DNA of 64,000 bases, from positions 124,001 to 188,000 of the forward strand of contig NZ_CP009247.1 in assembly GCF_001941485.1 (NCBI RefSeq), written 5' to 3'. The first letter of the stretch is position 1, and every line of letters starts with the position of its first letter. This document shows, in pieces, positions 274 through 60,894 of this stretch. The notes below the pieces were generated by a model. The model saw only the letters and a program-made list of their open reading frames with translations, was not told the origin of the DNA and made no database searches. Origin of the DNA: Corynebacterium frankenforstense DSM 45800 (lineage in GTDB: Bacteria > Actinomycetota > Actinomycetes > Mycobacteriales > Mycobacteriaceae). The translations under genes were made by a program, and so were the position numbers.

Positions 274-289
274 CATTGCCGACGTCCCG
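274..289 (+). repeat. Copy of dispersed 16-bp motif (one mismatch)
   Basis: CATTGCCGACGTCCCG, intergenic. It matches the consensus GMTTGMCGACGYCSCG at all but the first base. See the finding on this motif. Confidence 0.6.
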
Positions 290-395
290 TGCGTCCCCGT
301 TTCCGTGAGTTCTTCCGCGCTGCGATGTGTGCGACGTGGCTAATATCTCCACCATCCAGGTGGTTCACAGGGGGCGCATATGAGAGAATAAGCCC

Positions 396-1805
396 ATGAA
401 TAGTGTCCGGGGCTTGTTGGCTGCGCTTGTCTGCGCACCTCTCGTCCTGAGCCTCGCCGCGTGCGGGGGTGACACGGGGGTAGACGGGGGTGATTCCGTC
501 GGGTCCCACATCGGCGCGAAGGGACGCGACGGGCTGAAGCGGCCGAAGGTCAGCGAGAGCCCCGAGGGGCTCAGCCCCGGCGGCGCGATGGGCGAGATCT
601 CCGGCTGCGGCGACTGGCGTGCCGACGAGCTGGGCACCACCTACTTCGCCGACGGCAGCGTCGGGCTGACCGGGCGCTGCTTCAACCTGATGTGGGACGA
701 GTGGGAGGCCGAGCGCGACGGAAAGGCCCCGCGCCGCTCCTCCGCCGCGCGTCCGTCCGGGCAGACCAATATCGCGCAGGGTCGCGGCGGTGCCGCGGGC
801 TCCGCCGGTTCGGCGGGCTCTGCCGGTTCCGCCGGCTCCGCGGGTTCCCGTGTGGCCCCGGGGCGCACCGGCGGCAACGGCGCCGGGGGCTCCGGCGGTG
901 CGTCCGTCGTCGCCGGCGGCGGTGGTGCCGGCGGTAATGGCACCGGCGGTACCGGATGGGGCCGCTGGGGTGGTGGCACTCCGGCGCCGAGCCAGAACGA
1001 CAACGGCTGGGGCGGTGGCGCCCCGGCGCCGGATCAGGGCGGCCACGGCTGGGGCGGCTGGACCGTTGCTCCGGGCAACGGCGGCGGCAACGGTGGCTCC
1101 GGTAACGGCGGCAACGGTGGCAAGGGCGATTCCGGCGTGTCGGCCGGCGGGGGCGACGGCACGACCGTCATCGCCGGACCGACTCCGACCCCGCCCGGCG
1201 AGGACGCCGGTTCCGGCGGCCTCGTCCTGGTCCCGGGCAACGGTTCCGTCCCCGGCGGGATGCTCGAGCCGGTTGAGCCGGGCCAGCCCTCGAAGCCCGG
1301 GGACCCGGCCGCGCCGGGTGAGACCCCGAAGCCGGGCACGGGTGGCTCCTCCTCGGACTCCTCCGGGTCGTCGACGCAACGCGGGACGGACGAGGACGAC
1401 CCGGACAACCCGGGTACGTCCGAGCCGGGTACGTCTGAGCCTGGGCCGACCGAGCCGGGGACCACCGAGCCCGGCGGGACCGGGCACTGGGTGCCCTGGA
1501 CTCCGGTGGGCCCGTCGCAGCCCGTCGATCCGGAGGACCCGGACAAGGGCGGTGACCGGGACAAGCCGGACGACCCGGATGACCCGGACGTGCCTGATGA
1601 GCCCGGTGACACCGGTCGGCCGGGGGACTCTGACCGGCCCGATCCCGGCGAGACCGACGAGCCCGGTGACTCCGATAAGGCTGATGACTCCGGTCAGCCC
1701 GGTGACTCCGATAAGTCCGACGGCTCCGACAAGCTCGATAAGCCGGGTGGAGGTTCCGTCGTGATCGTCATCAAGCACCCGCACGGCCACCTGCACGCGG
1801 ACTAG
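396..1805 (+). CDS. Low-complexity secreted lipoprotein
   Basis: The 469-residue protein starts with a lipoprotein signal peptide whose lipobox is L20-A21-A22-C23, so it should be lipidated and anchored outside the membrane. Residues about 65-105 form the only compact segment, with cysteines at 71 and 95 that could pair. The rest is low complexity: Gly/Ala-rich with GSA repeats (about 125-260), then Pro/Gly-rich with PGTSEPG-like repeats, then Asp/Pro-rich with PGDSDK-like repeats, ending in a His-rich tail (KHPHGHLHAD). The strongly repetitive coding DNA suggests length variation by slippage. The composition resembles wall-spanning stalks, but I do not recognise the family. It is monocistronic and followed by a hairpin shared with the convergent gene. 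Confidence 0.75.
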   Translation: MNSVRGLLAALVCAPLVLSLAACGGDTGVDGGDSVGSHIGAKGRDGLKRPKVSESPEGLSPGGAMGEISGCGDWRADELGTTYFADGSVGLTGRCFNLMWDEWEAERDGKAPRRSSAARPSGQTNIAQGRGGAAGSAGSAGSAGSAGSAGSRVAPGRTGGNGAGGSGGASVVAGGGGAGGNGTGGTGWGRWGGGTPAPSQNDNGWGGGAPAPDQGGHGWGGWTVAPGNGGGNGGSGNGGNGGKGDSGVSAGGGDGTTVIAGPTPTPPGEDAGSGGLVLVPGNGSVPGGMLEPVEPGQPSKPGDPAAPGETPKPGTGGSSSDSSGSSTQRGTDEDDPDNPGTSEPGTSEPGPTEPGTTEPGGTGHWVPWTPVGPSQPVDPEDPDKGGDRDKPDDPDDPDVPDEPGDTGRPGDSDRPDPGETDEPGDSDKADDSGQPGDSDKSDGSDKLDKPGGGSVVIVIKHPHGHLHAD

Positions 1806-1842
1806 GTACGGGCGCCGCGGTTCGTCAGTGGCCCGCTTTCCG

Positions 1843-1874
1843 GATCGCCGGGGACGAGCGTGTTCCCGGCGATC
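1843..1874. terminator. Bidirectional terminator hairpin
   Basis: A perfect 10-bp stem (GATCGCCGGG / CCCGGCGATC) separated by 12 bases, lying between the convergent ends of the lipoprotein and CoA-transferase genes and touching the latter's stop codon. There is no clear T-tract. Confidence 0.5.
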
Positions 1875-3111: not shown

Positions 3112-3482
3112 CGTCTCTCCTCGTCGTCGGGTCGTCGGGGTCGGGCCTCAGGCGCGCCGGGCCCTGGGCTCCGGCACCGGCGCCGCTGCCCGACACCCGG
3201 GCCGTTGCCGGTACCGGCACCGTCGCCGGCGCGGTGACCGTTTCGGGTACCGGCGCCATCTCCGGCACCTGGGGTGGTGAGGTGGACACTAAACACATGC
3301 AAAAGGTGACGTACGGCATACGGTCGGATAAGTTGGTTCCGCATTCGGTATCAATACGACCTGCGACCGCAATCCACCAGTTCACGGTCGACCCGCGACC
3401 GCAATCTCCCTGTTCACGGTCCACCCGTCCGCGAACGACCAGACCGACAGACGACCAGACCGACGACCGGAAGGAGCCCGCC
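3112..3482. promoter_or_regulatory. Divergent promoter region between CoA-transferase and LysR genes
   Basis: 371 bases without a gene. The half near the CoA-transferase is GC-rich with repeated GGTACCGGC elements. The half near the LysR gene is less GC-rich and holds two imperfect direct repeats of about 31 bases (GCGACCGCAATC followed by TTCACGGTC) at about 3363-3386 and 3394-3420. Just before them is GGTATCAATACGACC (3348-3362), which fits a LysR T-N11-A box. The elements GCGACCGC and GGTATCAA recur in inverted orientation before the acyl-CoA dehydrogenase gene (4379-4395). Confidence 0.5.
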
Positions 3483-4395: not shown

Positions 4396-4400
4396 ACAAC

Positions 4401-4416
4401 CGGGACGTCGTTAAGC
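4401..4416 (-). repeat. Copy of dispersed 16-bp motif (one mismatch)
   Basis: Minus strand GCTTAACGACGTCCCG, in the short gap between the LysR and dehydrogenase genes. Confidence 0.5.
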
Positions 4417-5733: not shown

Positions 5734-5742
5734 GGGGGCGGG

Positions 5743-6872: not shown

Positions 6873-7685
6873 CTAGATCAGCCGCCGCGCCCGCGCCGTC
6901 GTGATCGCCGCGGTCCGGTTGTCCACCTCGAGCTTCTGGTAGATGTGCAGCAGGTGCGTCTTGACGGTCGCCAGCGAGATGAACAGCTGGTCGGCCAGTT
7001 CCTGGTTCGACGCCCCGGTCTGCAGCGCGTCGAGGATCTCGATCTCGCGTGCTGAGAGCGCCTCCTGCGGACTCGAGAGCCGCTCCGCCAGCGCCGCCGC
7101 GACCTCGGGGGACAGCGTGCGCCGCCCCTGCGCGGTGGCCAGCACCGCCCGGTGCAGCTCCTCCTCGGGGGCGTCCTTGAGCAGGTAACCCAGCGCGCCA
7201 GCGGCCACGGCGGCGACGATGTCGGCCTCCGTGTCGTAGGTGGTCAGCACCAGCACCGGCGGCCCGCCCGCGGCCCGCAGCCGTCGGATCGCCTCGATGC
7301 CGCCGATGCCCGGCATCTGGATGTCCATGACCACCACGTCCACGCTTTCCGACGTCCCGTCGGACCCGTCGGTGTGTCCCTCGCCGTCTGCGCCGGTTGC
7401 GGTGGCACCGGCTGTGCCGGTGGTGGTGGCACCGTCTGCGCCGGTCAGACGCAGCGCGTCCTCGCCGCTGGCGCCCTCGGCGACGACCGTGATCTCCGGG
7501 AAAGACTCCAGGATCGCGTGCAGGCCCGCGCGCACGACCGGGTGGTCGTCGACGAGCACGACGCGGACGCTCGGTTCGGTGGCGGCGGTGTTGCCGGTGC
7601 CGGCGGTGTTGCCGGTGTTGCCGGTGCCGGCGGTGGCGGCGGCGTGCTCGGTGGCGGGGGAGGGGCGCTGGGCGGGAGGTGTCAT
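6873..7685 (-). CDS. NarL/LuxR-family response regulator with low-complexity inserts
   Basis: The 270-residue protein has a receiver domain (acidic pair D46-D47, phospho-acceptor D121 in VVVMDIQMPG, and a later KDAPEEE lysine) and a C-terminal LuxR-type HTH (about 205-270: LSAREIEIL, then an SNQELADQLFISLATVKTHL recognition region). Two parts are unusual: a Thr/Gly/Asn-rich N-terminal tail (about 15-37) and a 30-residue Thr/Ala/Gly/Asp insert (82-113) inside the receiver domain just before the strand carrying D121. Both are encoded by repetitive DNA. It lies downstream of the histidine kinase gene on the same strand, 281 bases away, so it may have its own promoter. A TATCCT box lies nine bases before its ATG. 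Confidence 0.88.
   Translation of the reverse strand: MTPPAQRPSPATEHAAATAGTGNTGNTAGTGNTAATEPSVRVVLVDDHPVVRAGLHAILESFPEITVVAEGASGEDALRLTGADGATTTGTAGATATGADGEGHTDGSDGTSESVDVVVMDIQMPGIGGIEAIRRLRAAGGPPVLVLTTYDTEADIVAAVAAGALGYLLKDAPEEELHRAVLATAQGRRTLSPEVAAALAERLSSPQEALSAREIEILDALQTGASNQELADQLFISLATVKTHLLHIYQKLEVDNRTAAITTARARRLI
7344..7359 (+). repeat. Copy of dispersed 16-bp motif (one mismatch)
   Basis: GCTTTCCGACGTCCCG, located in the response-regulator insert region just before the phospho-acceptor strand. Confidence 0.5.
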
Positions 7686-7966: not shown

Positions 7967-9508
7967 TCACCGCGCCAGCGGGATCCGGGCGGTGATAGTC
8001 GTGCCGCGCTCCGAGGAGTCGATCGCCAGCGATCCGCCGGCCTCGGCCGCGCGGTCGCGCAGGCCGGCCAGCCCGAAGTGGCCCTCCGGGACGGCGTCCG
8101 GGTCGAAGCCGTGGCCGTCGTCGTGGATGTCGAGCGTCGCCTCGTGCTCCCAGACGCCCAGCGTGACGCGGGCCCGGTCGGCGCCGGAGTGGCGCACCGC
8201 GTTGGTCAGCGACTCGCGGGTGACCCGCTCGAGCACCTCGGCGGGCGGTCCGGTGACCTCTCCGGGCGGGTCGACGACGACCTCGACGGGCAGCCCGAAG
8301 CGCCGCGTGGTCGCCGCGGCCAGCTCCTCGAGCCGGGCGCGCAGACCGGGCCCGGCGGGCGCGGCGGCCGCCGCGCCGCCGGCACCGGAGGCTGCCGGCT
8401 GCGGACCCTTCCCGGCCTTCGCGCCAGTGCGTCCGGCCTGCGCCCCCGAGCGCCCGGCGGCGACCAGGCGGCGCGCCTCGGCCAGGTTCTCGGCGGCGAC
8501 CTCGCCGATCACGCCGAGCCGCTCGGCCGCCTTCCGGGTGTCGCCGCTGTCCAGCGCCTTGCCCGCCGCCCGGGAGAAGAGCACCACCGAGTTGAAGCCC
8601 TGGGCCAGGGTGTCGTGGATCTCGCGGGAGATGCGCTCGCGCTCGGCGAGCCGCCCGGCCTCGTTCTCGGCCGAGAGCGCCCGGGCCCGGGTCAGCGCCA
8701 GCTGGCGGGCGATCTCGCGCTGGCGTTCCAGCTCCTCGACGAGCGCGCGGTAGACGTGGCGCACCGCGACCGCGAAGGCCACGCCGATGGTCGGGCCGAT
8801 CAGCCCGCCGACGCTCCATCCCTCGGCGTCGGAGATCACGGGCAGGCCGAACGCGGGCACCGCCACTCCCACGACCAGGGTCGCCACGACCACGGCCATG
8901 CCGGGCCAGCCGTCGCCGGCGACGTGCATGATCACGAAGACCAGCGGGAAGAGCAGCCAGAGGAAGTCCGTGCTGAGCATCAGCAGCGCGAACCACAGGA
9001 CCAGCACCACCGCCAGCCACCAGCCGCGCAGCGCGCCGGGGCCGCGGGTGGTGCGTCCCATGGCCAGGCGGTGGTCCCAGGTCGTGCCCACCAGGTAGCA
9101 GGCCGCCAGCGCGGCGGTGAGGGCCAGCACCAGGCAGCGCACCGGTGTGGCGTCGTGGGGGAAGTACCCCGCGGCCTCGCCGAGGAACGGATGGGCGGGG
9201 TTCTCCGTCCACCCGCCGCCCGGCGCCTCCTGCTCCAGGTACCGGGCGCCCTGCCAGCTCAACACCGCGGCGAGCGCGAGCAGGAGGGCGAAGAGGACGT
9301 GCACGCCGACGCGCATCGCAGTCAGCAGCCGGGCCAGCGGGGTACCCGCGGCAGACCGGGCGACGGCCGAAGCGGCCGACGGAGCCGCCGAAGCGGCCGA
9401 AGCGGCCGACGGGGCCGCGGGCGGAGCGTTGGTCGTCGTACCCGCGCCCGACGGTGCGGCGGGCGCCGACGGTGCGGAAGACGCGGCGTCGGAAATCGAG
9501 GGGGCCAT
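7967..9508 (-). CDS. Sensor histidine kinase, NarL-type (HisKA_3)
   Basis: The 513-residue protein has an Ala/Ser-rich N-terminal tail (1-55), about six membrane segments between residues 62 and 250, a coiled linker, the HisKA_3 box RISREIHDTLAQGF with phospho-acceptor H298, and an HATPase domain with N-box ESLTNAVRHS and G-box DDGHGF. A Gly/Ala-rich insert lies between the dimerisation helices and the ATPase domain (about 345-375). ATG 9508 is chosen because TAGGTT sits seven bases upstream, a leaderless promoter. It pairs with the response regulator downstream and is divergent from the ABC exporter genes, so the system probably senses an envelope stress or toxic compound and controls the exporter (inference). 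Confidence 0.88.
   Translation of the reverse strand: MAPSISDAASSAPSAPAAPSGAGTTTNAPPAAPSAASAASAAPSAASAVARSAAGTPLARLLTAMRVGVHVLFALLLALAAVLSWQGARYLEQEAPGGGWTENPAHPFLGEAAGYFPHDATPVRCLVLALTAALAACYLVGTTWDHRLAMGRTTRGPGALRGWWLAVVLVLWFALLMLSTDFLWLLFPLVFVIMHVAGDGWPGMAVVVATLVVGVAVPAFGLPVISDAEGWSVGGLIGPTIGVAFAVAVRHVYRALVEELERQREIARQLALTRARALSAENEAGRLAERERISREIHDTLAQGFNSVVLFSRAAGKALDSGDTRKAAERLGVIGEVAAENLAEARRLVAAGRSGAQAGRTGAKAGKGPQPAASGAGGAAAAAPAGPGLRARLEELAAATTRRFGLPVEVVVDPPGEVTGPPAEVLERVTRESLTNAVRHSGADRARVTLGVWEHEATLDIHDDGHGFDPDAVPEGHFGLAGLRDRAAEAGGSLAIDSSERGTTITARIPLAR
9482..9497 (-). repeat. Copy of dispersed 16-bp motif (one mismatch)
   Basis: Minus strand GATTTCCGACGCCGCG, in the non-conserved N-terminal tail of the histidine kinase. 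Confidence 0.5.
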
Positions 9509-9641: not shown

Positions 9642-10673
9642 ATGTTTCTCGCACTGCGCGACATCGCACACGCCCGCGGTCGCTTCGCCCTCATCGGCAC
9701 CGTGATCGCGCTGGTCACGCTGCTCCTCGTCATGCTCACCGGGCTGACCGGCGGGCTCTCCCAGCGCAACACCTCCGCGCTCGACGCCCTCGAGCCCGAG
9801 CGCGTCGTCTTCGCCGGCGCCCCGGCCGGCGAGGAGCCCAAGATCGACTTCGCCGAATCCCACATCGAAGAGTCCACTGAGCGCGCCTGGCGCGAGGTCA
9901 CCGACGCCACCCCGCTCGGCGCCGGTCAGACCCGCGCCGACATGTCCGGCCAGGCCACGGCCGTCGCCGTCTTCGGCCTGCCCGCCGGCACCGAGGTGCC
10001 CGGCGGCACCGTGCCGGAGTCCGGCGCGCTCATCCCCGACGAGCTCGGCTCCGGCGAGCTGGTCCTCGGCGGCCAGGACGTCGCCGTGAGCGACACCGTG
10101 CCCACCGAGTACTACTCGCACCTGCCGGTCGTCTGGACCGACATGACCACCTGGCGCGAGGTCACCCACAGCGACGAGCCGACGGTGCTGCTTGCCGACG
10201 CCCCGTCCGACGACGTTGCGGACAAGGTCACCCACCAGACCGGTTCCACCGCCGTCACCCTGCGCGACTCCTACGACGGCCTGGCCGCCTACCGCTCCGA
10301 GCGCGGCTCGCTGGTGACCATGCAGGCGCTGCTCTACGGCATCTCCGCGCTGGTCATCGTCGCCTTCCTGAGCGTGTGGACCATCCAGCGCACCCGCGAC
10401 ATCGCCGTGCTGCGCGCCCTGGGCGCCTCCCGCGGCTACGTGCTGCGCGATGCGCTGGCCCAGGCCGGTGCCGTGGTGCTCGCCGGTGCCGTCGGCGGCG
10501 GCCTGGTCGGCTGGGGCCTCGGTGCCCTGGCCGCCGGCGCCGTGCCCTTCGCGCTGACGCTGGCCACCGTCGCCGGCCCGGTCGTCGGCGTGGTGGTGCT
10601 CGGCCTGATCGGCGCCGTGGTGGCCACCCGCCGCGTCGCCCGGGTCGACCCGCAGCTGGCGCTCAACGCGTGA
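9642..10673 (+). CDS. ABC transporter permease, FtsX/MacB type
   Basis: The 343-residue membrane protein has one N-terminal membrane segment (about 15-35), a large extracytoplasmic domain (about 40-225) and three C-terminal segments (about 230-335). The FtsX signature region IQRTRDIAVLRALGASRGYVLRD lies between transmembrane segments 2 and 3. This is the MacB-like topology of exporters and mechanotransducers that act on lipids, peptides or drugs. ATG 9642 follows GAAAGGA; an upstream in-frame start at 9612 lacks a site. It is followed 49 bases later by its ATPase. Control by the divergent two-component system is likely. Confidence 0.85.
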   Translation: MFLALRDIAHARGRFALIGTVIALVTLLLVMLTGLTGGLSQRNTSALDALEPERVVFAGAPAGEEPKIDFAESHIEESTERAWREVTDATPLGAGQTRADMSGQATAVAVFGLPAGTEVPGGTVPESGALIPDELGSGELVLGGQDVAVSDTVPTEYYSHLPVVWTDMTTWREVTHSDEPTVLLADAPSDDVADKVTHQTGSTAVTLRDSYDGLAAYRSERGSLVTMQALLYGISALVIVAFLSVWTIQRTRDIAVLRALGASRGYVLRDALAQAGAVVLAGAVGGGLVGWGLGALAAGAVPFALTLATVAGPVVGVVVLGLIGAVVATRRVARVDPQLALNA

Positions 10674-13495: not shown

Positions 13496-13511
13496 GATTG
13501 CCGACGCCGCG
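13496..13511 (+). repeat. Copy of dispersed 16-bp motif (exact)
   Basis: GATTGCCGACGCCGCG, intergenic, 14 bases before the end of the DUF6541 gene. Confidence 0.65.
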
Positions 13512-13524: not shown

Positions 13525-16161
13525 TCAGCGCACGCTGCGGCAGTAGCGCGGGTCCCAGCTGTCGACCTCGTAGACGAAGACGTCGTCGATCGGCTCCGCG
13601 CCGCGCTCCTCGTGGACCAGGGTGAGCCCCGGGGCGTTGGCGAGGTTCACGAAGGACCCGTAGGGCTCCAGGTTCGGCCAGAACATCGGCGGCGAGGCGA
13701 TGATGTAGCGCACGCCCAGCCGGCAGGCGGCCTCGTCCATCGGGTTGAGAGGGTCGCCGTTGATCAGGTCGGCGTGGAAGACCAGCTGGGTGGTGTCCAG
13801 CGGGTCGGTCTGGCGGTCGTTGAGGTAGTGCGAGAAGACCATCGGCAGGTCGTCGATGATGTAGCCCCAGCCCATGCCCTCCTCGGGCGCGGAGAGGATG
13901 GAGAACGGCTCCGGGGAGGCGTCCACCTGCTCGCGCAGGAAGTCGAACGCGCGCAGGTCCGCCTTCGAGATGACGCGGCCCTGCCGGTCGGCCGAGGCGG
14001 TCATGAGCTGCAGGCCGTGGTCCTCCGCGCTGGCCACCGCGGGCAGCTGCGTGGTCATCACCAGCGCGGCGGCGCCGACGACGGCCGCGGCCTGGGCCGC
14101 CTGCACCCAGCCGCCGCGGCCGGCGGCCTCCTCCGCGTCGTCCCCGGCGTCCCGCCCGGCCGGTTCGATGACCGCCGGTGCGGCGTCGACGACGGGCATG
14201 ACACCGGTCTCGGGGTCCTGGGCCGCCGCCCCCGTGACCGTCCCGCGGCCCACCGCGTGCGAGCCGCCGGGCCGTGCGGATTCCACGTCCCCGGCGGTGC
14301 GGTCCCCGTCGGCCCGGTCCGCGTCCGTCCGGTCCAGATCGGTGCGGCCCGCGTCCGTGCGGTCCATGTCGTCCACCCCGCCGACGGCGAGGTCGGTCTC
14401 GGCGTCGGCCACCGGGGCGTCGTCAATCTGCTCCCGCCCGCCACGTCGGGCGCGCGCCGCCCACAGCTGCAACGCGGCGCCGAGCGCGGCGATCAGCGCG
14501 CCGACCCCGGCCGAGACCGCCATCGCGCAGATGAGCACCACGCGGTGCGAGGCGTTGTAGTGGAAGGCGGTGAACATCTCCAGGGCGGTGCCCAGCCAGT
14601 TGTCGAAGGGCATCAGGCAGTAGACCGTGCCGCCGAAGCCGAGCGTCCACAGCGCGGTCAGCCACGTCCCGCCCGTGAACGCGAGCACGGCGAGGCCCAC
14701 CAGGCCGGCGATGATCAGGGCGTACCAGACGGTGTCGTCGCCGTACATGTCCCAGAACTTCGTCTCCATCATCAGCGCCTGGCTCAGCGAGTCGGCGCGG
14801 TCGTCGACCAGCTGCTGGTCGTAGCCGGTGACCTCGTCGACGTTGCCCAGGCCCACCAGGAACTGCGGGATGAACGGCACGGCCGTGAGCACCGCGGTGA
14901 GCACCAGGTGCCACAGCGCGCCCAGCCGAGTGGCCCCGAGCGCGGGCTTGACCAGCTGCTGGATCAGCCAGAACGCCAGGCCGGCGCCGACGACGGTGGC
15001 CGCCGAGGCGTGCGTCTGCACCGCGCCGAGGACGGCGAGCGCCGCCAGCGCCGAGGCCGCCCAGCGCGCGTCGACGGTCACGGCCGCGGCCGCCGCGACC
15101 GCCACGGCGATGCCCGCCAGCCCGATGCCGAAGCCGGCCGGCCAGGAGCCGTCGAAGAAGATGATCTGCCAGGCCGGCAGCAGCAGCGCGGAGGCCGCGG
15201 CCAGCGTGGTCGCCGCCCAGCGGGTGGCCACCGAGGCCAGGTCGAGCGGGAAGTTTCCGCTGCGGCGCAGCAGGAACCCGGCGCCGATCCAGACCAGCGC
15301 CGCGGCCGCACCGGCGGCCGCCACCGCCATCGAGACGCCCATGAACAGGTTGAGCACCTCGACGGTGTCCCACTCGCGCCCGGTGATCCGGTAGGCGACC
15401 TCGCCGGCGTAGTCGCAGGCCACGTGCCATCCGGTGGGGTAGTAGACCTCCTTGGCGTCCTCGGCGTAGCGCAGCTCGCCGGTGCGCGTCGGCGAGATCA
15501 CGCCCGTCTCGTGGACCCAGTGCACCAGCGAGGCGTGCCAGTGCATGTCCCAGCCCTGCGGGATCGAGCGCAGGCCCCGGTCGCCGGCGTCCATGATGCG
15601 CCGGGCGACGTCCGTGCCGGCCCAGACTACGAGCGCGGCGACCGTGCCCGCCGAGAGCAGCGCCTGCGCCCAGGCCCACGGCGTGGCCCCCGGGTTGCCG
15701 CCGGCGTGGCGCGCGCCCCGCTTGCCGACGTCGCGTCGCAGCGCGTGTGCGCCCCGCCCGCCGCGTGCGTGGCCGGCGCCGAGCGCGCCGGGCCGGCGCG
15801 GGTCGTACTCCCCGCCGCGTTCGGCGTCGGCACGTTCGCGCTCGCGCCGCCGCTGGGTGGCGATGACCCCGAGGGGCAGCGCCAGGGCGAGCACGAAGAC
15901 CCAGGACAGGGTGAGGCTCATCAGGTTGACCGGGACGCCCAGCCCGCCGAAGGCCCACCCGAAGAACCCGAGCACACCGACGGTGGCCGGCGCCGAGGCC
16001 GCCGCGGACAGGCCGGGGCGGCGGGTGAGCGCCAGACCGATGAGCAGACCCGGGACCACCAGCGCGGCGAGCATGAGCGCGCACAGCAGAACCAGCTCGG
16101 GGATGCCCGCGGTGGTCGCCGCGGTGCTGGCCGTCGGCGCTGCGGCGGCGGTGACCGTCAC
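13525..16161 (-). CDS. Large polytopic membrane protein, DUF6541-like
   Basis: The 878-residue protein has many membrane segments (about residues 15-600), a hydrophilic stretch (about 625-700) with short DRTDxDRTD-like repeats, one more membrane segment and a 160-residue extracytoplasmic tail. Pattern and length resemble DUF6541 proteins of corynebacteria, which look like GT-C-type polyprenyl-phosphate sugar transferases; a role in cell-wall or glycolipid glycosylation is inferred only. The GTG at 16161 is chosen because AGGAAGGA precedes it and the first membrane segment follows soon after; the frame stays open to 16260. A TAGACT box near 16230 may be the promoter. Two copies of the 16-bp motif (14413, 15720) lie in its hydrophilic segments. 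Confidence 0.65.
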   Translation of the reverse strand: MTVTAAAAPTASTAATTAGIPELVLLCALMLAALVVPGLLIGLALTRRPGLSAAASAPATVGVLGFFGWAFGGLGVPVNLMSLTLSWVFVLALALPLGVIATQRRRERERADAERGGEYDPRRPGALGAGHARGGRGAHALRRDVGKRGARHAGGNPGATPWAWAQALLSAGTVAALVVWAGTDVARRIMDAGDRGLRSIPQGWDMHWHASLVHWVHETGVISPTRTGELRYAEDAKEVYYPTGWHVACDYAGEVAYRITGREWDTVEVLNLFMGVSMAVAAAGAAAALVWIGAGFLLRRSGNFPLDLASVATRWAATTLAAASALLLPAWQIIFFDGSWPAGFGIGLAGIAVAVAAAAAVTVDARWAASALAALAVLGAVQTHASAATVVGAGLAFWLIQQLVKPALGATRLGALWHLVLTAVLTAVPFIPQFLVGLGNVDEVTGYDQQLVDDRADSLSQALMMETKFWDMYGDDTVWYALIIAGLVGLAVLAFTGGTWLTALWTLGFGGTVYCLMPFDNWLGTALEMFTAFHYNASHRVVLICAMAVSAGVGALIAALGAALQLWAARARRGGREQIDDAPVADAETDLAVGGVDDMDRTDAGRTDLDRTDADRADGDRTAGDVESARPGGSHAVGRGTVTGAAAQDPETGVMPVVDAAPAVIEPAGRDAGDDAEEAAGRGGWVQAAQAAAVVGAAALVMTTQLPAVASAEDHGLQLMTASADRQGRVISKADLRAFDFLREQVDASPEPFSILSAPEEGMGWGYIIDDLPMVFSHYLNDRQTDPLDTTQLVFHADLINGDPLNPMDEAACRLGVRYIIASPPMFWPNLEPYGSFVNLANAPGLTLVHEERGAEPIDDVFVYEVDSWDPRYCRSVR
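14413..14428 (-). repeat. Copy of dispersed 16-bp motif (exact)
   Basis: Minus strand GATTGACGACGCCCCG, in the hydrophilic linker of the DUF6541-like gene. Confidence 0.6.
15720..15735 (+). repeat. Copy of dispersed 16-bp motif (exact)
   Basis: GCTTGCCGACGTCGCG, in an Arg/Gly-rich cytoplasmic loop of the DUF6541-like gene. Confidence 0.6.
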
Positions 16162-18077: not shown

Positions 18078-19544
18078 ATGGACACGCCGTCGACCGCGTA
18101 CCTGGACCACACCCGAAAGCTTCTCGACGCCCGCGCCGCCCGTGCCCGTGAGCGGGCCGAGGCCGCGCGCGCCGGGGCCGCCGACGCCGGCGGTGCGCCC
18201 GCGGGAGGCGGTTCCGGGGGAGGGGCCTCATCCGAGGGAGGCGGATCCGGTTCCGGGGCCGGTGGCGACGTCGCCTCCCTGTCCTGGGAGCGCATCGCCG
18301 CCGACGCCGAGGAGCTGCGCGGCGAGCTGCGCGACCTGGCCTTCGACCTGCACGACCACCCCGAGGAGGCCTTCGAGGAGCACCACGCCGCCGCCGCGCT
18401 CGCGCAGCTGCTGCGCGCCCACGGCCACCGCGTCGAGACCGGCGTCGGGGGCCTGCCCACCGCCCTGCGGGCGGTGGCGCAGACGCCGGGCGGCGGGACG
18501 TCGGCAATCGAGGGGGACGGGGACGCCGGCGACGCCCGCGACGCCGGGCCGACCGTCGCGATCCTCGCCGAGTACGACGCGCTGCCCGGCCTCGGCCACG
18601 GCTGCGGGCACAACATCATCGCCGCCGCCGGGGTCGGCGCCTTCCTCGCCGCCGCCCGCGAACTCGAGCGGGGTGTGACCGGCCCGGGGCGGATCGTGCT
18701 GCTGGGCACCCCGGCCGAGGAGGGCCACACCGGCAAGGAACACATGATCCGCGGCGGCGCCTTCGACGGCGTCGACGCCGCCGTGATGGTCCACCCCTTC
18801 GGCTACGACCTCGCCGAACACGCCTGGGTGGGCCGGCGCACCATGACCGCGACCTTCCGCGGCATCTCCGCGCACGCCTCCTCCCAGCCGTTCATGGGGC
18901 GCAATGCGCTGGACGCCGCGACGCTGGCCTACCAGGGCTTCGGGCTGCTGCGCCAGCAGATGCCGCCGAGCGACCGGCTGCACGCCGTCATCGACTCGGG
19001 TGGGCGGCGCCCTTCGGTCATCCCGGACGAGGCGCGCTTGTCGGTCTACGTGCGCTCCCTGATCCCGGCGGCGCTGCGCGACCTGTCCGCGCGTGTCGAC
19101 GACGTGCTGCTCGGCGCCGCGCGCATGGCCGGCGTCGACGTCGAGCTGGACTGGGACATCCACCCGCCGAGCCTGCCGGTGCGCAACAACCACGTGCTCG
19201 CCCGGCGCTGGGCGCGCACCCAGGCGTTGCGCGGGCGCACGGCGCTGCCCGGCGGGATCCTGCCGGACTCGCTGGCGGCCTCCACCGACTTCGGCAACGT
19301 CTCGCACCTGGTGCCCGGCATCCACCCGATGATCAAGATCGGCCCCGACGACGCCGCGCTGCACACTGCGCGCTTCGCCGAGTGCTCCCGCAGCGGGGCG
19401 GGTGTCGACGCCGCGGTGGACGCCGCCGCGGGCCTGGCCCAGGTGGCCGTGGACATGCTCAATGAGCCGGAGCTGCTGGCCGAGGCGCGCGCCGAGTTCG
19501 AGGCGGCCGGCGGGCGCCTGGCGGTGGCCGACTACCTGGGGTGA
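18078..19544 (+). CDS. M20-family amidohydrolase, AbgB/aminoacylase-like
   Basis: The 488-residue protein has the M20 metallopeptidase signature EYDALPGLGHGCGHN (metal His and Asp), the glutamate pair TPAEEGH, the dimerisation domain with GISAHASSQP, and a late metal site near residue 415. This pattern is that of AbgB, which cleaves p-aminobenzoyl-glutamate, and related aminoacylases. The N-terminal region (about 12-68) is a non-conserved Ala/Gly/Ser-rich extension, and a second insert near residue 140 contains one exact copy of the 16-bp motif (18494). A GTG at 18072 overlaps the abgT stop as TAGTG; the ATG at 18078 is used here. Coupled to abgT. Confidence 0.85.
   Translation: MDTPSTAYLDHTRKLLDARAARARERAEAARAGAADAGGAPAGGGSGGGASSEGGGSGSGAGGDVASLSWERIAADAEELRGELRDLAFDLHDHPEEAFEEHHAAAALAQLLRAHGHRVETGVGGLPTALRAVAQTPGGGTSAIEGDGDAGDARDAGPTVAILAEYDALPGLGHGCGHNIIAAAGVGAFLAAARELERGVTGPGRIVLLGTPAEEGHTGKEHMIRGGAFDGVDAAVMVHPFGYDLAEHAWVGRRTMTATFRGISAHASSQPFMGRNALDAATLAYQGFGLLRQQMPPSDRLHAVIDSGGRRPSVIPDEARLSVYVRSLIPAALRDLSARVDDVLLGAARMAGVDVELDWDIHPPSLPVRNNHVLARRWARTQALRGRTALPGGILPDSLAASTDFGNVSHLVPGIHPMIKIGPDDAALHTARFAECSRSGAGVDAAVDAAAGLAQVAVDMLNEPELLAEARAEFEAAGGRLAVADYLG
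18494..18509 (-). repeat. Copy of dispersed 16-bp motif (exact)
   Basis: Minus strand GATTGCCGACGTCCCG, in a low-complexity insert of the M20 gene. Confidence 0.6.
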
Positions 19545-20315: not shown

Positions 20316-20331
20316 CGCGGCGTCGGCAAGC
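20316..20331 (-). repeat. Copy of dispersed 16-bp motif (exact)
   Basis: Minus strand GCTTGCCGACGCCGCG, in the gap between the convergent nitroreductase and phage-holin-like genes. Confidence 0.65.
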
Positions 20332-25907: not shown

Positions 25908-25923
25908 AATTGCCGACGTCCCG
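25908..25923 (+). repeat. Copy of dispersed 16-bp motif (one mismatch)
   Basis: AATTGCCGACGTCCCG, intergenic between the sirtuin and ROK genes. The flanking GTCCGTCCCC also resembles the bases after the copy at 274. Confidence 0.6.
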
Positions 25924-40435: not shown

Positions 40436-40780
40436 TTGCTTGACGACGCCGCGCCCGACTCGCCCTTGGCGTTGGACGACGTCACCGACGCCGTCCTCGC
40501 AGTAGTCGACAAGATCCCGGCAGGCCGGGTGGCCAGCTACGGCGCGGTCGGTGCGGCCGCCGGCACCACCGCGCGCCGGGCGGGCCGCGCGATGCGCACC
40601 CACGGCCACCTGACCGCCTGGTGGCGGGTGGTGCGCGCGGACGGCACCTCGCCGGTGGGGGAGCGGGCACGTGTCCACTGGGACGAGGAGGGCATCCCGT
40701 ACACGGTGACCCGCACCCGCGAGGGCGCGCGTTACCGCGTGGATATGCGTTGGGCGGGTCTGCGACCGGGAGAAATTTAG
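40436..40780 (+). CDS. Alkyltransferase-like protein (MGMT family, ATL)
   Basis: The 114-residue protein covers the MGMT DNA-binding domain: DKIPAGRVASYGAVGAAAG, the arginine-finger block RRAGRAMRTHG, then AWWRVVRADGT. In MGMT the last block is PCHRV with the acceptor cysteine; a Trp in its place is the mark of ATL proteins, which bind O6-alkylguanine, bend the DNA and recruit nucleotide excision repair. No ATG or GTG is available near the family start; TTG 40436 or TTG 40466 may be used. The exact 16-bp motif at 40438 overlaps the first codons. Confidence 0.85.
   Translation: MLDDAAPDSPLALDDVTDAVLAVVDKIPAGRVASYGAVGAAAGTTARRAGRAMRTHGHLTAWWRVVRADGTSPVGERARVHWDEEGIPYTVTRTREGARYRVDMRWAGLRPGEI
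40438..40453 (+). repeat. Copy of dispersed 16-bp motif (exact)
   Basis: GCTTGACGACGCCGCG, at the junction between the VOC and ATL genes. Confidence 0.6.
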
Positions 40781-47508: not shown

Positions 47509-48906
47509 TTACGCCCCCATCATGTTCTGGCCGCACACGCGCACGGTGTTGCCGCTGACCGCGGACGACGCCGGGGCGGCGAAGTACGCGATGGTCTCGG
47601 CGACGTCGACGGTCTGGCCGCCCTGCTGCAGCGAGTTGATGCGCCGGCCGACCTCGCGCGGGCCGAGCGGCATCGCGGCGGTCATGGCGGTCTCGATGAA
47701 GCCGGGGGCCACGGCGTTGACGGTCAGGCCGGCGCCGGTCTCGGCGAACTTGCCGGAGAGCGCGTCGACCAGCCCGATCACGCCGGCCTTGGTGGTCGCG
47801 TAGTTGGTCTGGCCGCGGTTGCCGGAGATGCCGGCCATCGAGGAGACACCGACCACGCGCGCGGAGTCGGAGAGCGCACCGGCCTCGAGCAGGGCCTCGG
47901 TGATGCGCACCGGGGCGACGAGGTTGATGTTCTGCACCATCTTCCACTGGCCCTCGTTCATGTTGGCCAACAGCTTGTCGCGGGTGACACCGGCGTTGTG
48001 CACGATGGTGTCGATCGGGGCGTCGAAGCGCTCGCGCACGTGCTCGGCGATGACCTCGGCGGCGTTGTCGGCGGTCACGTCGAGCGGCAGCGCGGTGCCC
48101 TTGACCTTGTTGGCGGTGTTGGTCAGGCCCTCACCGGCGGCGGGGATGTCGACGCAGACCACGCGCGCGCCGTCGCGGGCGAGCACCTCGGCGATGGTCG
48201 CGCCGATGCCGCGGGCGGCACCGGTGACCACGGCGACGCGCCCCTCGAGCGGGCGCTCCCAGTCGGCGGGCTCCTCGGCGGCCTGCGCGCCGACGCGGAT
48301 GACCTGCCCGTCGACGAAGGCGGACTTGCCGGAGAGCAGGAAGCGCAGCGTGGAGGCCAGCGGGGTGAGTCCGCTTGCCGACGCCGCGTGCGCCCCGCCC
48401 TCGCCGGTTCCCGCACCCGTGGCGGCGGACCCGGCGCCGAGCGCCGGGTCGGTGTAGACGAGCTGGCAGGTGGCGCCTCGGCGCAGCTCCTTGGCCAGCG
48501 AGCGGGTGAATCCCTCGAGGGCGCGCTGGGCGATGCGCTCGTCGATGTCCGCGGTGGCCTCGGGGGTGGTGCCGAGGACGACGAGGCGGGCGCAGGGGGT
48601 GACCTTGCGCAGCTGCGGGTGGAAGAAGTCGTAGAGGGCCTCGAGGTCCTCGGGGCGGGTGATGCCGGTGGCGTCGAAGACGAGGGCGGCGCGCTTGGTG
48701 TCGGCCTCGGCGGAGAGGTACTGGTAGTCGCCGCCGAGCAGGTCGCGCAGGCCGCCGGCCAGCCGGCCGTCGCCGCCGATGACGACGGGGCCGTCGAGGG
48801 CGGGCTCGCCCGGGGCGTGGCGGCGCAGCTTCTCGCCCTGCGGCACGCCGGCCTTGGCGGCGAGCGGGGAGTTGATGAACTGTTCGAGCAGTCCGGACTT
48901 CGGCAT
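47509..48906 (-). CDS. fabG4: 3-oxoacyl-ACP/CoA reductase FabG4 (high-molecular-weight FabG)
   Basis: The 465-residue protein has an N-terminal flavodoxin-like half (about 1-205) and a C-terminal SDR half: [12 protein letters not shown] (cofactor), [11 protein letters not shown], catalytic Ser in VSSMAGI, YATTKAG with Tyr and Lys, and [10 protein letters not shown]. This layout is that of mycobacterial FabG4 (Rv0242c), which reduces 3-oxoacyl-CoA with NADH. ATG 48906 follows AAGGGAG. A Gly/Ala insert (about 155-180) holds an exact 16-bp motif (48373). Divergent from fadA2, operon with htdX. Confidence 0.92.
48373..48388 (+). repeat. Copy of dispersed 16-bp motif (exact)
   Basis: GCTTGCCGACGCCGCG, in the non-conserved insert of fabG4. 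Confidence 0.6.
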
Positions 48907-50728: not shown

Positions 50729-52867
50729 ATGAGTAACAAAACAACCACGGCCAAGCCCGAGTCCGGTAGCCCGGCCGTCCTGCCCACCGAGACCGACGAC
50801 AAGATCGGCCGCGGTCTGCGCGCCATCCTCGACGGCCCCTGGGCCCGCCTGCGCCGCGAGGTGCGCGAGACCATCAACAACCCGGACCTCCTGCCGGCCC
50901 CGCATCTCAGCCTCGACGAGCAGCGCGAGCGCCTGCTCGGCCAGGTCAAGGCCATGGGGGCCACCGGCATCCAGTCCGGCGCCTTCTCCGTGGCCAACGG
51001 CGGCCAGGGCGAGAACGGCAACATGCTCACCAGCCTCGAGATGATCGGCGGGGTCAACCTGCAGCTCATGGTCAAGGCCGGCGTGCAGTGGGGCCTGTGG
51101 GGCGGTGCCGTCGACGCCCTCGGCACCGAGCGCCACCGCCAGTACGTGCAGGACACCATCGACCTGAAGCTGCTCGGCGCCTTCGCCATGACCGAGCGCG
51201 GCCACGGCTCCAACGTCCGCGACCTGGAGACCACCGCCCACTTCGACCCGGCCACCGGCGAGTTCGACATCCACTCGCCGACGCCCTCCTCGGAGAAGAC
51301 CTACCTGGGCAACGCCGCCAAGCACGGCTCCATCGCCGCCGTCTTCGCCCAGCTCTACACCCCGGAGAGCGAGGAGTCCCGCGGCGTGCACTGCTTCATC
51401 GTGCCGATCCGCGACGACTCCGGAAACCCCCTGCCCGGCGTGACCATCGAGGACAACGGCCACAAGGGCGGCCTCAACGGCGTCGACAACGGCACCCTGA
51501 AGTTCGACCACGTGCGCGTGCCGCGCGAGAATCTGCTCAACCGCTTCGGCGACGTCGACGAGAAGGGCCACTACACCTCCTCGATCGAGTCGGACGACCG
51601 CCGCTTCTTCACCATGCTCGGCACACTGATCCGCGGCCGCATCGCGGTCGGCGCCGCCGCCGGCGCCGCCACGCGCTCGGCGCTGGCCATCGCCACGAAG
51701 TACGCGACGCGACGTCGTCAATTTGAGACGGTGCCCGGCAAGGAGCGGCTCCTGATCGGCCACCGCCAGCACCGCCGCCGCCTCATCCCGCGCATCGCGC
51801 GCTCCTACGCGCTGGCGCTGCTGCAGAACCAGCTGATCAAGACCGCCGATGAGCGCCTGCGCGACACCGAGACGGTCAACCGCACCGGCGAGGACCTGTG
51901 GAAGCAGCGCGAGTTTGAGTCGCGCGCCGCGGCCGTCAAGATCGCCAACACCGCCCACGCCATGGACGCCATCCAGGAGGCCCGCGAGGCCTGCGGCGGC
52001 GCCGGCTACATGGCGGAGAACCTGCTGACCACCTTCCGCGCGGACGCCGACGTCTTCGTCACCTTCGAGGGCGACAACACGGTGCTCGCGCAGCTGGTGG
52101 GCAAGGAGATCATCACCGCCTACTCGCGCGAGATGTCCGGGCTGTCGGGCATCGACATCGTCAAGTTCGGCGTAGACAGCGTCAGTGAGATCCTGCGCAA
52201 GCGCACCCCGATCCCGCTGACCGTGCAGAACTGGGTCGAGAGCATCAGCCGCAACGACGAGAACTCGCTGTTCAACGCGTCCTACCAGCTCAAGCTCTTC
52301 CAGGAGCGCGAGCAGAACATGCTGCGCGCGCTGGGGCGCCGCCTGCGCACGGCCAAGGACCTGCCGCTGGCCGAGGCCGCCGAGGTCGTGGACAAGGCCC
52401 AGGACCACCTCATCGACTGCGCCTGGGCGCGCGTGGACACCCTGCTGCTCGAGGCGCTCCTCGAGGCCGAGGCCGACATGGACGACCTGCCGGAGGACTC
52501 CCTGCTGCGCAAGGTCTTCGAGCAGATCCGCCAGCTCTTCGCGCTGGACACCATCCTGAAGAACTCGGGCTGGTACCAGGAGAAGAACGTGCTCGCCGGC
52601 GGCCGGATCTCCGCCGCGCGCGCTGCGGTCAACGACCTGGTCGACTCGCTGGGCCCGTGGGCCGAGCAGCTCGTCGACGGCTTCGGGGTGCCGGACGTGG
52701 TCCTCGACGTGCCGATGCTGACCACCCGCGCCGGCGTCGACGGCGTGCCGGAGCGGAACCGCGAGGAGATCGCCGCGGACCTGGCCGGCAGCACCGGCGT
52801 CGCCGACCGCGTGCCCAACGGCGAGGTGTCGGGTGACGACGCCGCGGGGCGCCACGCGGCCGAGTAA
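50729..52867 (+). CDS. Acyl-CoA oxidase-type acyl-CoA dehydrogenase
   Basis: The 712-residue flavoenzyme follows the acyl-CoA oxidase layout, not that of ordinary 380-residue dehydrogenases. It has an N-terminal helical domain, FAMTERGHGSNVRDLETTA and FDIHSPTPSSEKTYLGNA (both typical ACOX), ATRRRQFE, EACGGAGYMAEN, and TFEGDNTVLAQLVGKE with the acidic base region, then a 250-residue C-terminal ACOX domain. It probably introduces the 2,3 double bond into acyl-CoA; whether electrons go to oxygen or to ETF cannot be told. ATG 50729 follows GAGGAAAGGA by about eight bases. It follows fadA2 and takes the place of fadE5 of the mycobacterial locus. Confidence 0.87.
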   Translation: MSNKTTTAKPESGSPAVLPTETDDKIGRGLRAILDGPWARLRREVRETINNPDLLPAPHLSLDEQRERLLGQVKAMGATGIQSGAFSVANGGQGENGNMLTSLEMIGGVNLQLMVKAGVQWGLWGGAVDALGTERHRQYVQDTIDLKLLGAFAMTERGHGSNVRDLETTAHFDPATGEFDIHSPTPSSEKTYLGNAAKHGSIAAVFAQLYTPESEESRGVHCFIVPIRDDSGNPLPGVTIEDNGHKGGLNGVDNGTLKFDHVRVPRENLLNRFGDVDEKGHYTSSIESDDRRFFTMLGTLIRGRIAVGAAAGAATRSALAIATKYATRRRQFETVPGKERLLIGHRQHRRRLIPRIARSYALALLQNQLIKTADERLRDTETVNRTGEDLWKQREFESRAAAVKIANTAHAMDAIQEAREACGGAGYMAENLLTTFRADADVFVTFEGDNTVLAQLVGKEIITAYSREMSGLSGIDIVKFGVDSVSEILRKRTPIPLTVQNWVESISRNDENSLFNASYQLKLFQEREQNMLRALGRRLRTAKDLPLAEAAEVVDKAQDHLIDCAWARVDTLLLEALLEAEADMDDLPEDSLLRKVFEQIRQLFALDTILKNSGWYQEKNVLAGGRISAARAAVNDLVDSLGPWAEQLVDGFGVPDVVLDVPMLTTRAGVDGVPERNREEIAADLAGSTGVADRVPNGEVSGDDAAGRHAAE
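51708..51723 (-). repeat. Copy of dispersed 16-bp motif (one mismatch)
   Basis: Minus strand AATTGACGACGTCGCG, over the conserved codons for ATRRRQF of the acyl-CoA oxidase-type gene; one of the few copies in a conserved protein block. Confidence 0.45.
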
Positions 52868-53068: not shown

Positions 53069-53084
53069 CGCGACGTCGTCAAGC
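53069..53084 (-). repeat. Copy of dispersed 16-bp motif (exact)
   Basis: Minus strand GCTTGACGACGTCGCG, a few bases beyond the stop of the M13 peptidase gene. Confidence 0.65.
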
Positions 53085-55027: not shown

Positions 55028-55063
55028 GGCGTCCACCATAGAGCGGGTGTTGGGGGCCTCGCG

Positions 55064-60200: not shown

Positions 60201-60675
60201 CGCTGGCGACGCTCAGGTCGCCGTCGACGGAGCGCACGAACAGCCCGCGCTGCCCGGACTTCTCCGAGTCCGGGGGCACGGTGCCCAGAAGCAGCGTCTC
60301 GTCCTCGTTGAGCCGGTCGACGGCGCTGACGGGCACCGTGGCCTCGAGCTCCTCGGGCGCATACGACATCAGCGGCGCGTTCACGCTGGCCAGGTCGCCG
60401 TCCTGCGGCCAGTTCAGCGTCGACTGCGTCTGCTTGACCGGCAGGAACGGCACGGCCAGGAAGCACAGGAACGCCAGCACGCCGGTGACGGCGGCCAGGG
60501 TCTTCAGCCACCTCGGCGCGAGCGGGCGCTCCGGCTGCGGCAGCTCCGCGGTGTGCGTGCGCCGTGCGTCGTGGTCACCGCGCACGCTTGCCGACGCCGC
60601 GGTGGCCGCCGCGGGCGATTCCGCCGCGGGCGCGTCGGGGTGCGGGTTCTTGGGGGATCTCGACGGGTCAGTCAC
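57205..60675 (-). CDS. emb: Cell-wall arabinosyltransferase Emb
   Basis: The 1156-residue GT-C enzyme matches the single Emb of corynebacteria (about 1146 residues). It has an N-terminal membrane segment, a first extracytoplasmic domain, a GT-C acidic motif FGANTADDGYLLTMAREAG, many membrane segments to about residue 690, then a large C-terminal carbohydrate-binding part with LSPTWRNLRLP. It adds alpha-1,5 arabinose from decaprenyl-phosphoarabinose to arabinogalactan and is the ethambutol target. The GTG at 60675 has TAGACT eight bases upstream; the open frame further upstream is low-complexity. An exact 16-bp motif lies in the non-conserved N-terminal tail (60586). Confidence 0.93.
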   Translation of the reverse strand: MTDPSRSPKNPHPDAPAAESPAAATAASASVRGDHDARRTHTAELPQPERPLAPRWLKTLAAVTGVLAFLCFLAVPFLPVKQTQSTLNWPQDGDLASVNAPLMSYAPEELEATVPVSAVDRLNEDETLLLGTVPPDSEKSGQRGLFVRSVDGDLSVASAGTVFFRLSPEEVDALDDDAALDVKVTEDSATVDVTGQKAGVGALDEDTLTGEEPDEDLRPMVTGVYSEIADTPENAAALTDAGLDVHVEINSRFTSSPTVWKSLAMWLGVALTAVSLWCLWRLDRLDGRGRLPVVRPGSWRPRVLDWIVGGVLVFWHFFGANTADDGYLLTMAREAGPSGYMANYYRWFGVPESPFGTPYYDLLALMTHVSTASAWMRLHALASALIIWFVLSREVLPRLGEAVGARKVALWTVAAVFLAFWLPYDNGTRPEPVIAMGALVTWVSFERAIATRRLLPAAVGLIIATLSLGAGPTGLMAVAAFLVSLPALFRVLFARRAMVGSVLPMLAPFLGAGTAILIAVFADQTLAGVLESTRVRGEIGPSLPWYQEFARYESLFEVGTVDGAFTRRFPMLILFVALAVVVLAVVRWRRIPGTDLGPVLRLVGIVVGAMFFMMFTPTKWTHHFGVYAGIGAALAAVAALAVSQLALRSRRAHTLIVGGFLLLYALALAGDNGWWYVSSFAVPWWDRPVQYHAVFATTIVLLIAILVLAAGVVQALIAEVRGTSPAPKQNAWTRLVAAPIAVLGVVTVAFSVASFAKGFVDQYPAYSVGKGNLNDLRGNTCGLGGDVLVESDTNDAFLTPVDGVALGDSLESGEVRGFDPNAVPSDIAPDDVATGDAGSFAQQASQQQNNAGGDDATSGTTGGERGGEAVGVNGSTQDLPFNLDFRRVPVIGSYTPEGELGGSAMAKTSWYELPAQRSEDKPVLVVSAAGSIEHHDINGELQEGQRLVLEYGTRGADGKVTDTGTVELYDVGLSPTWRNLRLPLDELPESADVVRINARDTSLDEDEWLAFTPPRVPTLEHLSDRLDADAPGMIDWSVGLQFPCQRPFGHYAGVAEIPEFRVSPDGPGKRTLSPVQDYAGGGALGLAETVNWSYELPAYLDGDWQRDWGSLEIYSPRSNSQGDEPRVAQIDHEEITRSGLWKPSEMNIDTQDEEKN
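60586..60601 (+). repeat. Copy of dispersed 16-bp motif (exact)
   Basis: GCTTGCCGACGCCGCG, in the variable N-terminal tail of emb. Confidence 0.6.
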
Positions 60676-60683
60676 ACATCGTG

Positions 60684-60689
60684 AGTCTA
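60684..60689 (-). promoter_or_regulatory. Leaderless -10 box of emb
   Basis: TAGACT on the minus strand, eight bases before the GTG at 60675. Confidence 0.5.
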
Positions 60690-60878
60690 CGGCAGCCCCG
60701 GGGCGCGGCCCCAAGCCGCGCCCGGGGCGGCCGGTGGGTGCCCGCCCGGCCGACGGGCGCGCCGGGCCGGCGGGAGTGCGCTGTGCCGTGTCGGCGGGAG
60801 TGCGCCCGGCCGGGCTCCCGGCCGGAACCCGCGGCGCCCGCCGCACGCGCCACCGCCGACGGCGCTGGGCGGCGAGGC

Positions 60879-60894
60879 CGGGGCGTCGGCAATC
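60879..60894 (-). repeat. Copy of dispersed 16-bp motif (exact)
   Basis: Minus strand GATTGCCGACGCCCCG, in the gap between aftA and emb, six bases past the aftA stop. Confidence 0.65.

Follow-up and report, generated by a model that had tools for sequence, protein, structure and literature searches.

A dispersed 16-bp motif of Corynebacterium frankenforstense is probably a dialect of a genus-wide DNA uptake sequence

Why should one 16-bp word recur some twenty times, on both strands and both inside and between genes, within 64 kb of a bacterial chromosome? The question is raised by a window of 64,000 nucleotides (the whole stretch of DNA analysed; positions 124001-188000) of the single 2,604,152-bp chromosome of Corynebacterium frankenforstense DSM 45800 (G000 among our genomes, the others of the genus bearing handles of the same kind). 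An earlier note on this window had picked out the motif GMTTGMCGACGYCSCG and likened it to DNA uptake sequences (DUS) or to a nucleoid or segregation signal. Our survey suggests that the motif is probably this species' dialect of a DUS-like signal found across the genus. The comparative evidence, namely copy number, strand symmetry, dialects, scarcity on contigs of plasmid size and in three phages, and competence genes, supports the uptake half of that first reading.

All 14 exact and all six one-mismatch copies listed in the earlier note lie at the positions and on the strands it gave; one further one-mismatch copy had been overlooked, bringing the window total to 21 copies with at most one mismatch (Table 1). 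With up to two mismatches the window holds 34 matches, against 3.6 ± 2.0 in 100 dinucleotide shuffles. The chance expectation of 0.003 exact matches per 64 kb had been set somewhat low, Markov models of orders 1, 2, 4 and 5 giving 0.006-0.013 against the 14 observed, and the eight intergenic copies counted among the 20 become ten under our gene calls, which are crude throughout and made without homology.

The complete chromosome contains 378 exact copies of GMTTGMCGACGYCSCG (191 forward, 187 reverse), where the same Markov orders predict 0.23-0.52 and the reversed pattern occurs once. The motif therefore lies far above the fourth-order expectation and is not confined to the window, and it stands after both checks that the earlier note had proposed. 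Each of 400 column-permuted versions has at most one match in 464 kb of this genome; the true motif has 70. With a weight matrix grown at a 5% false-discovery rate over an order-4 background, the 464 kb yield 192 sites (0.41 per kb), a density that extrapolates to about 1,080 per genome, an abundance far above chance such as marks DUS and the uptake signal sequences (USS) of Pasteurellaceae. The "one per 3 kb" of the earlier note thus holds for the degenerate motif, and not for exact copies (about one per 6.9 kb). The matrix consensus is G[AC]TTG[AC]CGACG[CT]C[GC]CG, with C favoured at -1 and preferred at +21 (0.79); outside the 16-mer only these two bases stand out in the matrices, and intergenic copies show weaker C/G preferences further downstream. 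The C at +21, five bases past the 16-mer, is present in 44 of the 50 intergenic copies of a relaxed form of the motif, so that the preference is not a codon effect alone. The signal unit appears to be about 22 bp long, with one contact about a helical turn past the core.

Word enrichment in relatives yielded a common core, GCTTNNCGACG. Its copies were counted across 242 Corynebacterium genomes, with enrichment called at no less than three times the control and at least 150 copies. The core is enriched in 171 of them (195-1964 copies, median 1090; median control 67), with strand totals of 91,999 forward and 92,100 reverse; the remaining 71 hold 8-134 copies. A second dialect, GCTTNNCGATG, is abundant in 14 genomes (490-1337 copies); of these, 13 are without the GCTTNNCGACG dialect. 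Three more genomes have about 210-225 copies. A right-half form, YGACGCCGCG, counted in 62 genomes, is strong in G012 (743 versus 49 for the control) and G021 (551 versus 62) besides C. frankenforstense, stands at three to four times the control in a few others (for example, G206, G113, G008, G083 and G232), and is at or below the control in many; in G012 it takes the form TGACGCCGCG, with the T form dominant. In the matrices of six positive genomes (a weak matrix from G120 being set aside) the central YGAYG hardly varies at its G, A and G (at least 0.96). Related species thus carry dialects with a shared core, as is characteristic of DUS and USS, at site densities of 0.16-0.87 per kb. In samples of about 22 kb, the CGACG form is found in 11-18 copies each in C. 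striatum, C. minutissimum, C. tuberculostearicum, C. urinipleomorphum and C. senegalense, and the CGATG form in five copies in C. macginleyi and eight in C. phoceense. Among 185 genomes of 30 other genera of the family (a subset of 201 drawn from it), in which GCTTNNCGAYG alone was sought, no comparable enrichment occurs (top ratio to control about 2.7); as to this word, the signal is confined to the genus within the family.

One genome, G024, holds both dialects (1337 copies of GCTTNNCGATG and 352 of GCTTNNCGACG) and is perhaps caught in dialect transition. A de novo word search in the signal-poor genomes G131, G029, G049, G018, G011, G043 and G120 returned no comparable word (best z 7.6-13.9, versus 43 in G005). 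The sampled stretches of G049 (104 kb) contain 12 copies of TGTGGATAAC, which presumably resembles a DnaA box, against 0.3 expected. Those of G120 are over-represented in CTCGNCGAGG (37 versus 5.4) and GGACGCCGC (47 versus 11-13), the second of which may represent the signal in a decayed or distant state.

The distribution of copies relative to genes suggests that the signal acts at the level of DNA rather than of protein or RNA. In 464 kb of C. frankenforstense, 50 of 118 copies of the relaxed form are intergenic, where non-coding DNA makes up 13% by the crude gene calls, and the 67 coding copies divide into 46 sense and 21 antisense. When synonymous codons are shuffled within each gene, copies drop sharply in all eight genomes analysed, and sense copies, antisense copies and most frames exceed the shuffles; in C. 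frankenforstense, sense offset 2 has 43 copies versus 0.4 and antisense offset 2 has 15 versus 0.0. Exceptions are antisense offset 2 in G001 (just 1.8-fold) and G013 (2.6-fold), and some frames with no copy or one. The earlier note had argued that protein function does not explain the coding copies, and their excess on both strands and in several frames indeed makes that cause unlikely. A DNA-level signal on both strands, in coding and non-coding DNA, is what DUS and USS present; here, intergenic copies are rare in G001, G004 and G013. A single sense frame is preferred in all eight genomes, its codons reading [IL][AD]D[AV][AP] in C. frankenforstense. These codon-level counts rest on gene seeds filtered by codon-position GC; the C. 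frankenforstense figures of a second gene caller were dropped, as it chose wrong, inverted frames in this genome of 72% GC, with a coding fraction of 0.80.

The first three called genes of the chromosome were read by eye as dnaA, dnaN and recF, which places the origin near position 1. With the terminus at the midpoint, 61 sites are leading and 57 lagging; by local GC skew the numbers are 58 and 60. The 20 sampled 20-kb stretches round the chromosome hold 2-10 sites each. Neither the polarity relative to replication that marks Chi and the FtsK-orienting polar sequences (KOPS), in the strands of this genome or in the totals of the 171, nor the origin or terminus cluster of parS and matS sites was found. 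The segregation half of the first reading is thereby left unsupported, the lack of origin-to-terminus polarity and of regional clustering speaking against it; the strand counts exclude polarity of the KOPS kind and disfavour Chi.

Like DUS and USS, the signal is rare in mobile DNA, judged on plasmid-size contigs and three phages. On 19 stretches from contigs of 4-145 kb in 11 signal-rich genomes (their plasmid status is unproven), there are 10 core copies in 348.6 kb (reversed control 4), versus 55 in 178.5 kb of chromosome from four of these genomes, making the core roughly tenfold scarcer. The corynephages BFK20, phi673 and phi674 carry one core copy in 130.7 kb in total. As a comparison for the phages' host, C. 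gallinarum, which is closely related to C. glutamicum, has 12 core copies in 22.4 kb. Neisserial DUS are described as absent from recently acquired genes and as favouring permissive parts of the core genome (PMC2397512), a preference that fits the remark of the earlier note that coding copies tend to sit in inserts and tails.

How dialects change was followed at aligned sites, using ungapped codon alignments from which gapped windows were dropped and whose comparisons are not independent events. Between genomes of the same dialect, the form is kept in 62 of 440 comparisons (CGACG-CGACG) and 8 of 62 (CGATG-CGATG). Across dialects, in 22 comparisons of 178 and 22 of 182 the partner has its own form, the other form never appearing, which suggests that one dialect replaces the other at aligned positions. 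Positions 6 and 9, where the bases switch, fall on the third base of a codon in the favoured frame, which would make a dialect change cheap. Site conservation exceeds that of the flanks only in the closer pairs G013/G031 (0.81 versus 0.72) and G002/G017 (0.75 versus 0.70), with 14 comparisons each. In a 20-genome tree of two proteins, in which several nodes are weak and 4 of the 14 GCTTNNCGATG-rich genomes are included, the CGACG form is scattered over the tree and the four CGATG genomes cluster, with the signal-free G043 among them; this clustering leaves no statistical power for a receptor search by dialect co-variation.

The DNA-uptake gene set that accompanies DUS and USS is present in the hosts, as known here from the genes. 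ComEC and a Tad-type ATPase occur in 80 of 80 genomes (40 GCTTNNCGACG-rich and 40 GCTTNNCGACG-poor), a helix-hairpin-helix (HhH) protein of ComEA size in 40 of 40, a prepilin peptidase in 40 of 40 at E <= 0.001 (37 above the Pfam cut-off), and Flp/TadE/TadF-like open reading frames (ORFs) in 20 of 20; TadA, ComEA, ComEC and an adjoining helicase are found in all 20 compared loci, with further genes patchy under a crude choice of ORFs. The tad locus of C. frankenforstense, at about 295.9-301.6 kb, comprises a 541-aa protein without Pfam match, a T2SSE ATPase, a T2SSF protein, a DUF4244 protein, which we read as a putative Flp-like pilin, and two small Pfam-less proteins, read from their pilin-like N-termini as candidate TadE and TadF. 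ComEC (Competence domain) and ComEA (SLBB and HhH domains) lie at about 2,020-2,022 kb, adjoining a DNA polymerase delta-subunit gene, with DprA at 1,666.8 kb and the prepilin peptidase at 1,195.7 kb. Transformation of Micrococcus luteus needs tad and comEA/EC genes, and a prepilin peptidase also serves it, a combination reported to be frequent in actinobacteria (PMC4322843). The DUS receptor of Neisseria is a minor pilin (PMC6370729), which would make the small Tad pilins the first receptor candidates and ComEA the second. The presence or absence of this machinery was considered as the cause of the presence or absence of the signal and rejected: the genes do not separate the rich and poor groups.

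On balance we lean towards a self-recognising transformation system in corynebacteria, in which a Tad/Flp-pilus uptake machine reads clade-specific DUS dialects; the system would date back to the ancestor of the genus, with several losses since. A receptor on the pilus or the membrane, belonging to the competence apparatus (a Tad/Flp pilus with small pilins, then ComEA, then the ComEC channel), would bind signal-bearing double-stranded DNA better, and uptake of such DNA and its recombination with the chromosome would be more frequent. Copies would spread and persist through this biased uptake, as a molecular drive perhaps joined by selection for uptake of kin DNA, and hardly any would accumulate on plasmids and phages; as the specificity of the receptor drifted, copies would be rewritten base by base into dialects. 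Biased uptake with recombination is known to write dialect copies in Neisseria and Haemophilus, and it is the sole process known to us for writing and rewriting about a thousand non-polar copies per genome in dialects.

Four other explanations can be envisioned. The copies might be binding sites of an abundant sequence-specific chromosome protein, such as a nucleoid organiser or condensin loader, with about 1000 sites per genome and a specificity that changed between clades. The sites are scattered along the entire chromosome, scarce on plasmid-size contigs and in three phages, and evenly spaced in C. frankenforstense, all of which would suit such a protein; competence genes would then have no need to follow the signal. 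We nonetheless consider it unlikely, because the rewriting of about 1000 sites would need a drive, selection on each site for a structural protein being presumably weak, and because densities range from 0.16 to 0.87 per kb among genomes, the signal is missing in others and there is no origin or terminus cluster. A Chi-like recombination signal for a RecBCD/AdnAB-type nuclease would likewise be dispersed, enriched on the chromosome and divided into species dialects, with an information content near that of Chi. The even split between strands, both in C. frankenforstense by either division of its replichores and over the 171 genomes, gives the sites no replication orientation, and a core of 11-16 bp plus the C at +21 is long for Chi, making this quite improbable.

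An element acting in RNA, as a 3'-end processing or termination signal or through codon context in translation, gains from the single sense frame so strongly preferred within genes and from the intergenic copies of C. frankenforstense, 22 of 50 of which lie within 30 nt past a stop codon and directed away from the gene, versus six directed toward it. The seven other genomes tested show no such stop-codon preference, nearly a third of the coding copies here (21 of 67) are antisense, and antisense copies and other frames exceed synonymous shuffles, if only 1.8-fold (G001) and 2.6-fold (G013) at antisense offset 2; moreover, the Haemophilus uptake signal has itself been re-used in terminators (PMC5217627). 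We regard an RNA-level element as very improbable. Least probable by far is a dispersed mobile repeat, whether a miniature inverted-repeat transposable element or one like the repetitive extragenic palindromic elements. It draws on five copies of C. frankenforstense that share about 25 bp, four of them directly past stop codons, and outside this subfamily no long conserved unit inserted as a block was found: beyond the 16-mer only the two flanking C positions are prominent, with weaker C/G preferences in intergenic copies, and dialect replacement at aligned sites suits substitution rather than insertion, gapped windows having been dropped by design.

Several results weigh against reading the motif as an uptake signal. 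Tad and ComE genes are retained in G043, G131, G029, G049 and G120, in which the signal is weak or missing, and at the cut-offs used both main dialects are lacking in 58 of the 242 genomes, among which G012 and G021 carry the third form; some Neisseriaceae genomes are likewise described as having no obvious DUS (PMC3630211). Sites are almost missing between genes in G001 (1 of 47), G004 (1 of 41) and G013 (1 of 26), their intergenic density is below the genic one in G012 and G025, and a clear intergenic richness is found only in C. frankenforstense among the eight genomes. Spacing is more even than random there (P 0.0045) and not clearly so in four others (P 0.07-0.83). In the nearest cross-dialect pairs, those of G040 with the CGATG genomes, replacement in place is never seen (0 of 10 and 0 of 21), and between distant species sites are conserved about as much as their flanks (0.64 versus 0.62; across dialects 0.59-0.61 versus 0.59-0.62).

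As far as sequence can tell, the signal resembles DUS in its working. Copy numbers are similar to those of Neisseriaceae, where dialects follow phylogeny (PMC3630211): in both, a core of some 10 bp recurs about one to two thousand times per 2-3 Mb, on both strands and in and between genes, the dialects of related species share a small near-invariant core, and some relatives have none. Two dialects coexist in one genome in G024 here and in S. muelleri there (PMC3630211). The Corynebacterium signal differs in its sequence, its Gram-positive host, its mostly genic sites in several species and its Tad/Flp-type pilus genes in place of type IVa pili, and no ComP-like receptor is known. With Pasteurellaceae USS it shares high copy number, both strands, a core with an outlying conserved position (here the C at +21) and, in C. 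frankenforstense, use near transcript ends; the Haemophilus USS has flanking tracts. Sequence, host and pilus type again differ, and in both comparisons it is a candidate uptake signal. M. luteus, with Tad/Flp-dependent transformation, offers the same tadA-tadB/C-flp-tadE-tadF-like genes with comEA/comEC, whereas neither "uptake sequence" nor "uptake signal" occurs in the main text of PMC4322843. Chi and KOPS are also dispersed, over-represented chromosomal words; they are polar along replichores, unlike the Corynebacterium signal.

Among the matches listed in the open-access literature, outside which subscription journals mostly lie, there is no report of an uptake sequence or of natural transformation in Corynebacterium. 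If the uptake reading is true, this would be, to our knowledge, the first DUS-type self-recognising transformation system in a Gram-positive genus, the literature covered naming Neisseriaceae and Pasteurellaceae only. A survey of spaced motifs that includes Corynebacterium species ascribes the patterns there to clustered regularly interspaced short palindromic repeats (PMC5217627). Were the uptake reading to hold, a form of bacterial sex of which no report was found, with species barriers legible in genomes, would exist in a large genus whose members live on skin, in animals and in soil or serve industry. It would help to explain gene movement among corynebacteria, offer a handle for getting DNA into industrial strains where other methods fail, and provide an independently evolved case for settling the origin of uptake sequences and dialects. 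With the signal scored as present or absent in 242 genomes, comparative genomics can be used to search for the receptor.

Table 1 Copies of the signal with at most one mismatch in the 64-kb window
Position	Strand	Match	Context
274..289	+	1 mismatch	Intergenic
4401..4416	-	1 mismatch	Intergenic
7344..7359	+	1 mismatch	Antisense in gene 6873-7685(-)
9482..9497	-	1 mismatch	Intergenic
10190..10205	+	Exact	Sense in gene 9642-10673(+)
13496..13511	+	Exact	Intergenic
14413..14428	-	Exact	Sense in gene 13525-16161(-)
15720..15735	+	Exact	Antisense in gene 13525-16161(-)
18494..18509	-	Exact	Antisense in gene 18078-19544(+)
20316..20331	-	Exact	Intergenic, 9 nt past stop codon, directed away from gene
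25908..25923	+	1 mismatch	Intergenic
32394..32409	+	Exact	Antisense in gene 31452-33959(-)
36554..36569	-	1 mismatch	Sense in gene 36296-36901(-); overlooked in the earlier note
40438..40453	+	Exact	Intergenic, 3 nt past stop codon
44668..44683	-	Exact	Sense in gene 44548-45510(-)
48373..48388	+	Exact	Antisense in gene 47509-48906(-)
51708..51723	-	1 mismatch	Antisense in gene 50729-52867(+)
53069..53084	-	Exact	Intergenic, 5 nt past stop codon
54782..54797	-	Exact	Sense in gene 53090-55039(-)
60586..60601	+	Exact	Intergenic
60879..60894	-	Exact	Intergenic, 6 nt past stop codon, facing copy at 60586

Some minor observations concern individual copies and genes. The window gene at 13525-16161(-), of 878 aa, holds its two exact copies in opposite orientations. 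In C. frankenforstense, the five copies of the subfamily (L011:2261, L018:11560, L022:15239, L022:18592 and L025:8983) share the longer unit of about 25 bp [AG]ATTGCCGACG[CT]CCCGTCGGTCGCC, and the four past stop codons lie 3-9 nt beyond them; CCGACG followed by CCGTCGG allows a short hairpin to form, and the subfamily is possibly a terminator family grown out of the signal. At L017:12406-12440, where two genes converge, two copies with their starts 19 bp apart stand face to face and make a 16-bp hairpin with a 3-nt loop that resembles the uptake signals in Haemophilus terminators.

Among the machinery genes, one internal stop each was seen in comEC of the signal-poor G123 and in the ComEA-type frame of the signal-poor G007, either of which could be a sequencing error. 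The signal seemed inversely linked to an HhH match in a protein of about 1,100 residues, but the link proved to be an artefact of the short profile: the four such proteins tested are error-prone DNA polymerases of the DnaE2 type, strong matches to which (E below 1e-100) occur in 219 of the 242 genomes, with and without the signal. In 21 genomes (for example, G034, G068, G088, G097, G121, G138 and G225) there are weak matches only (E about 1e-52 to 1e-60), and these may have lost DnaE2.

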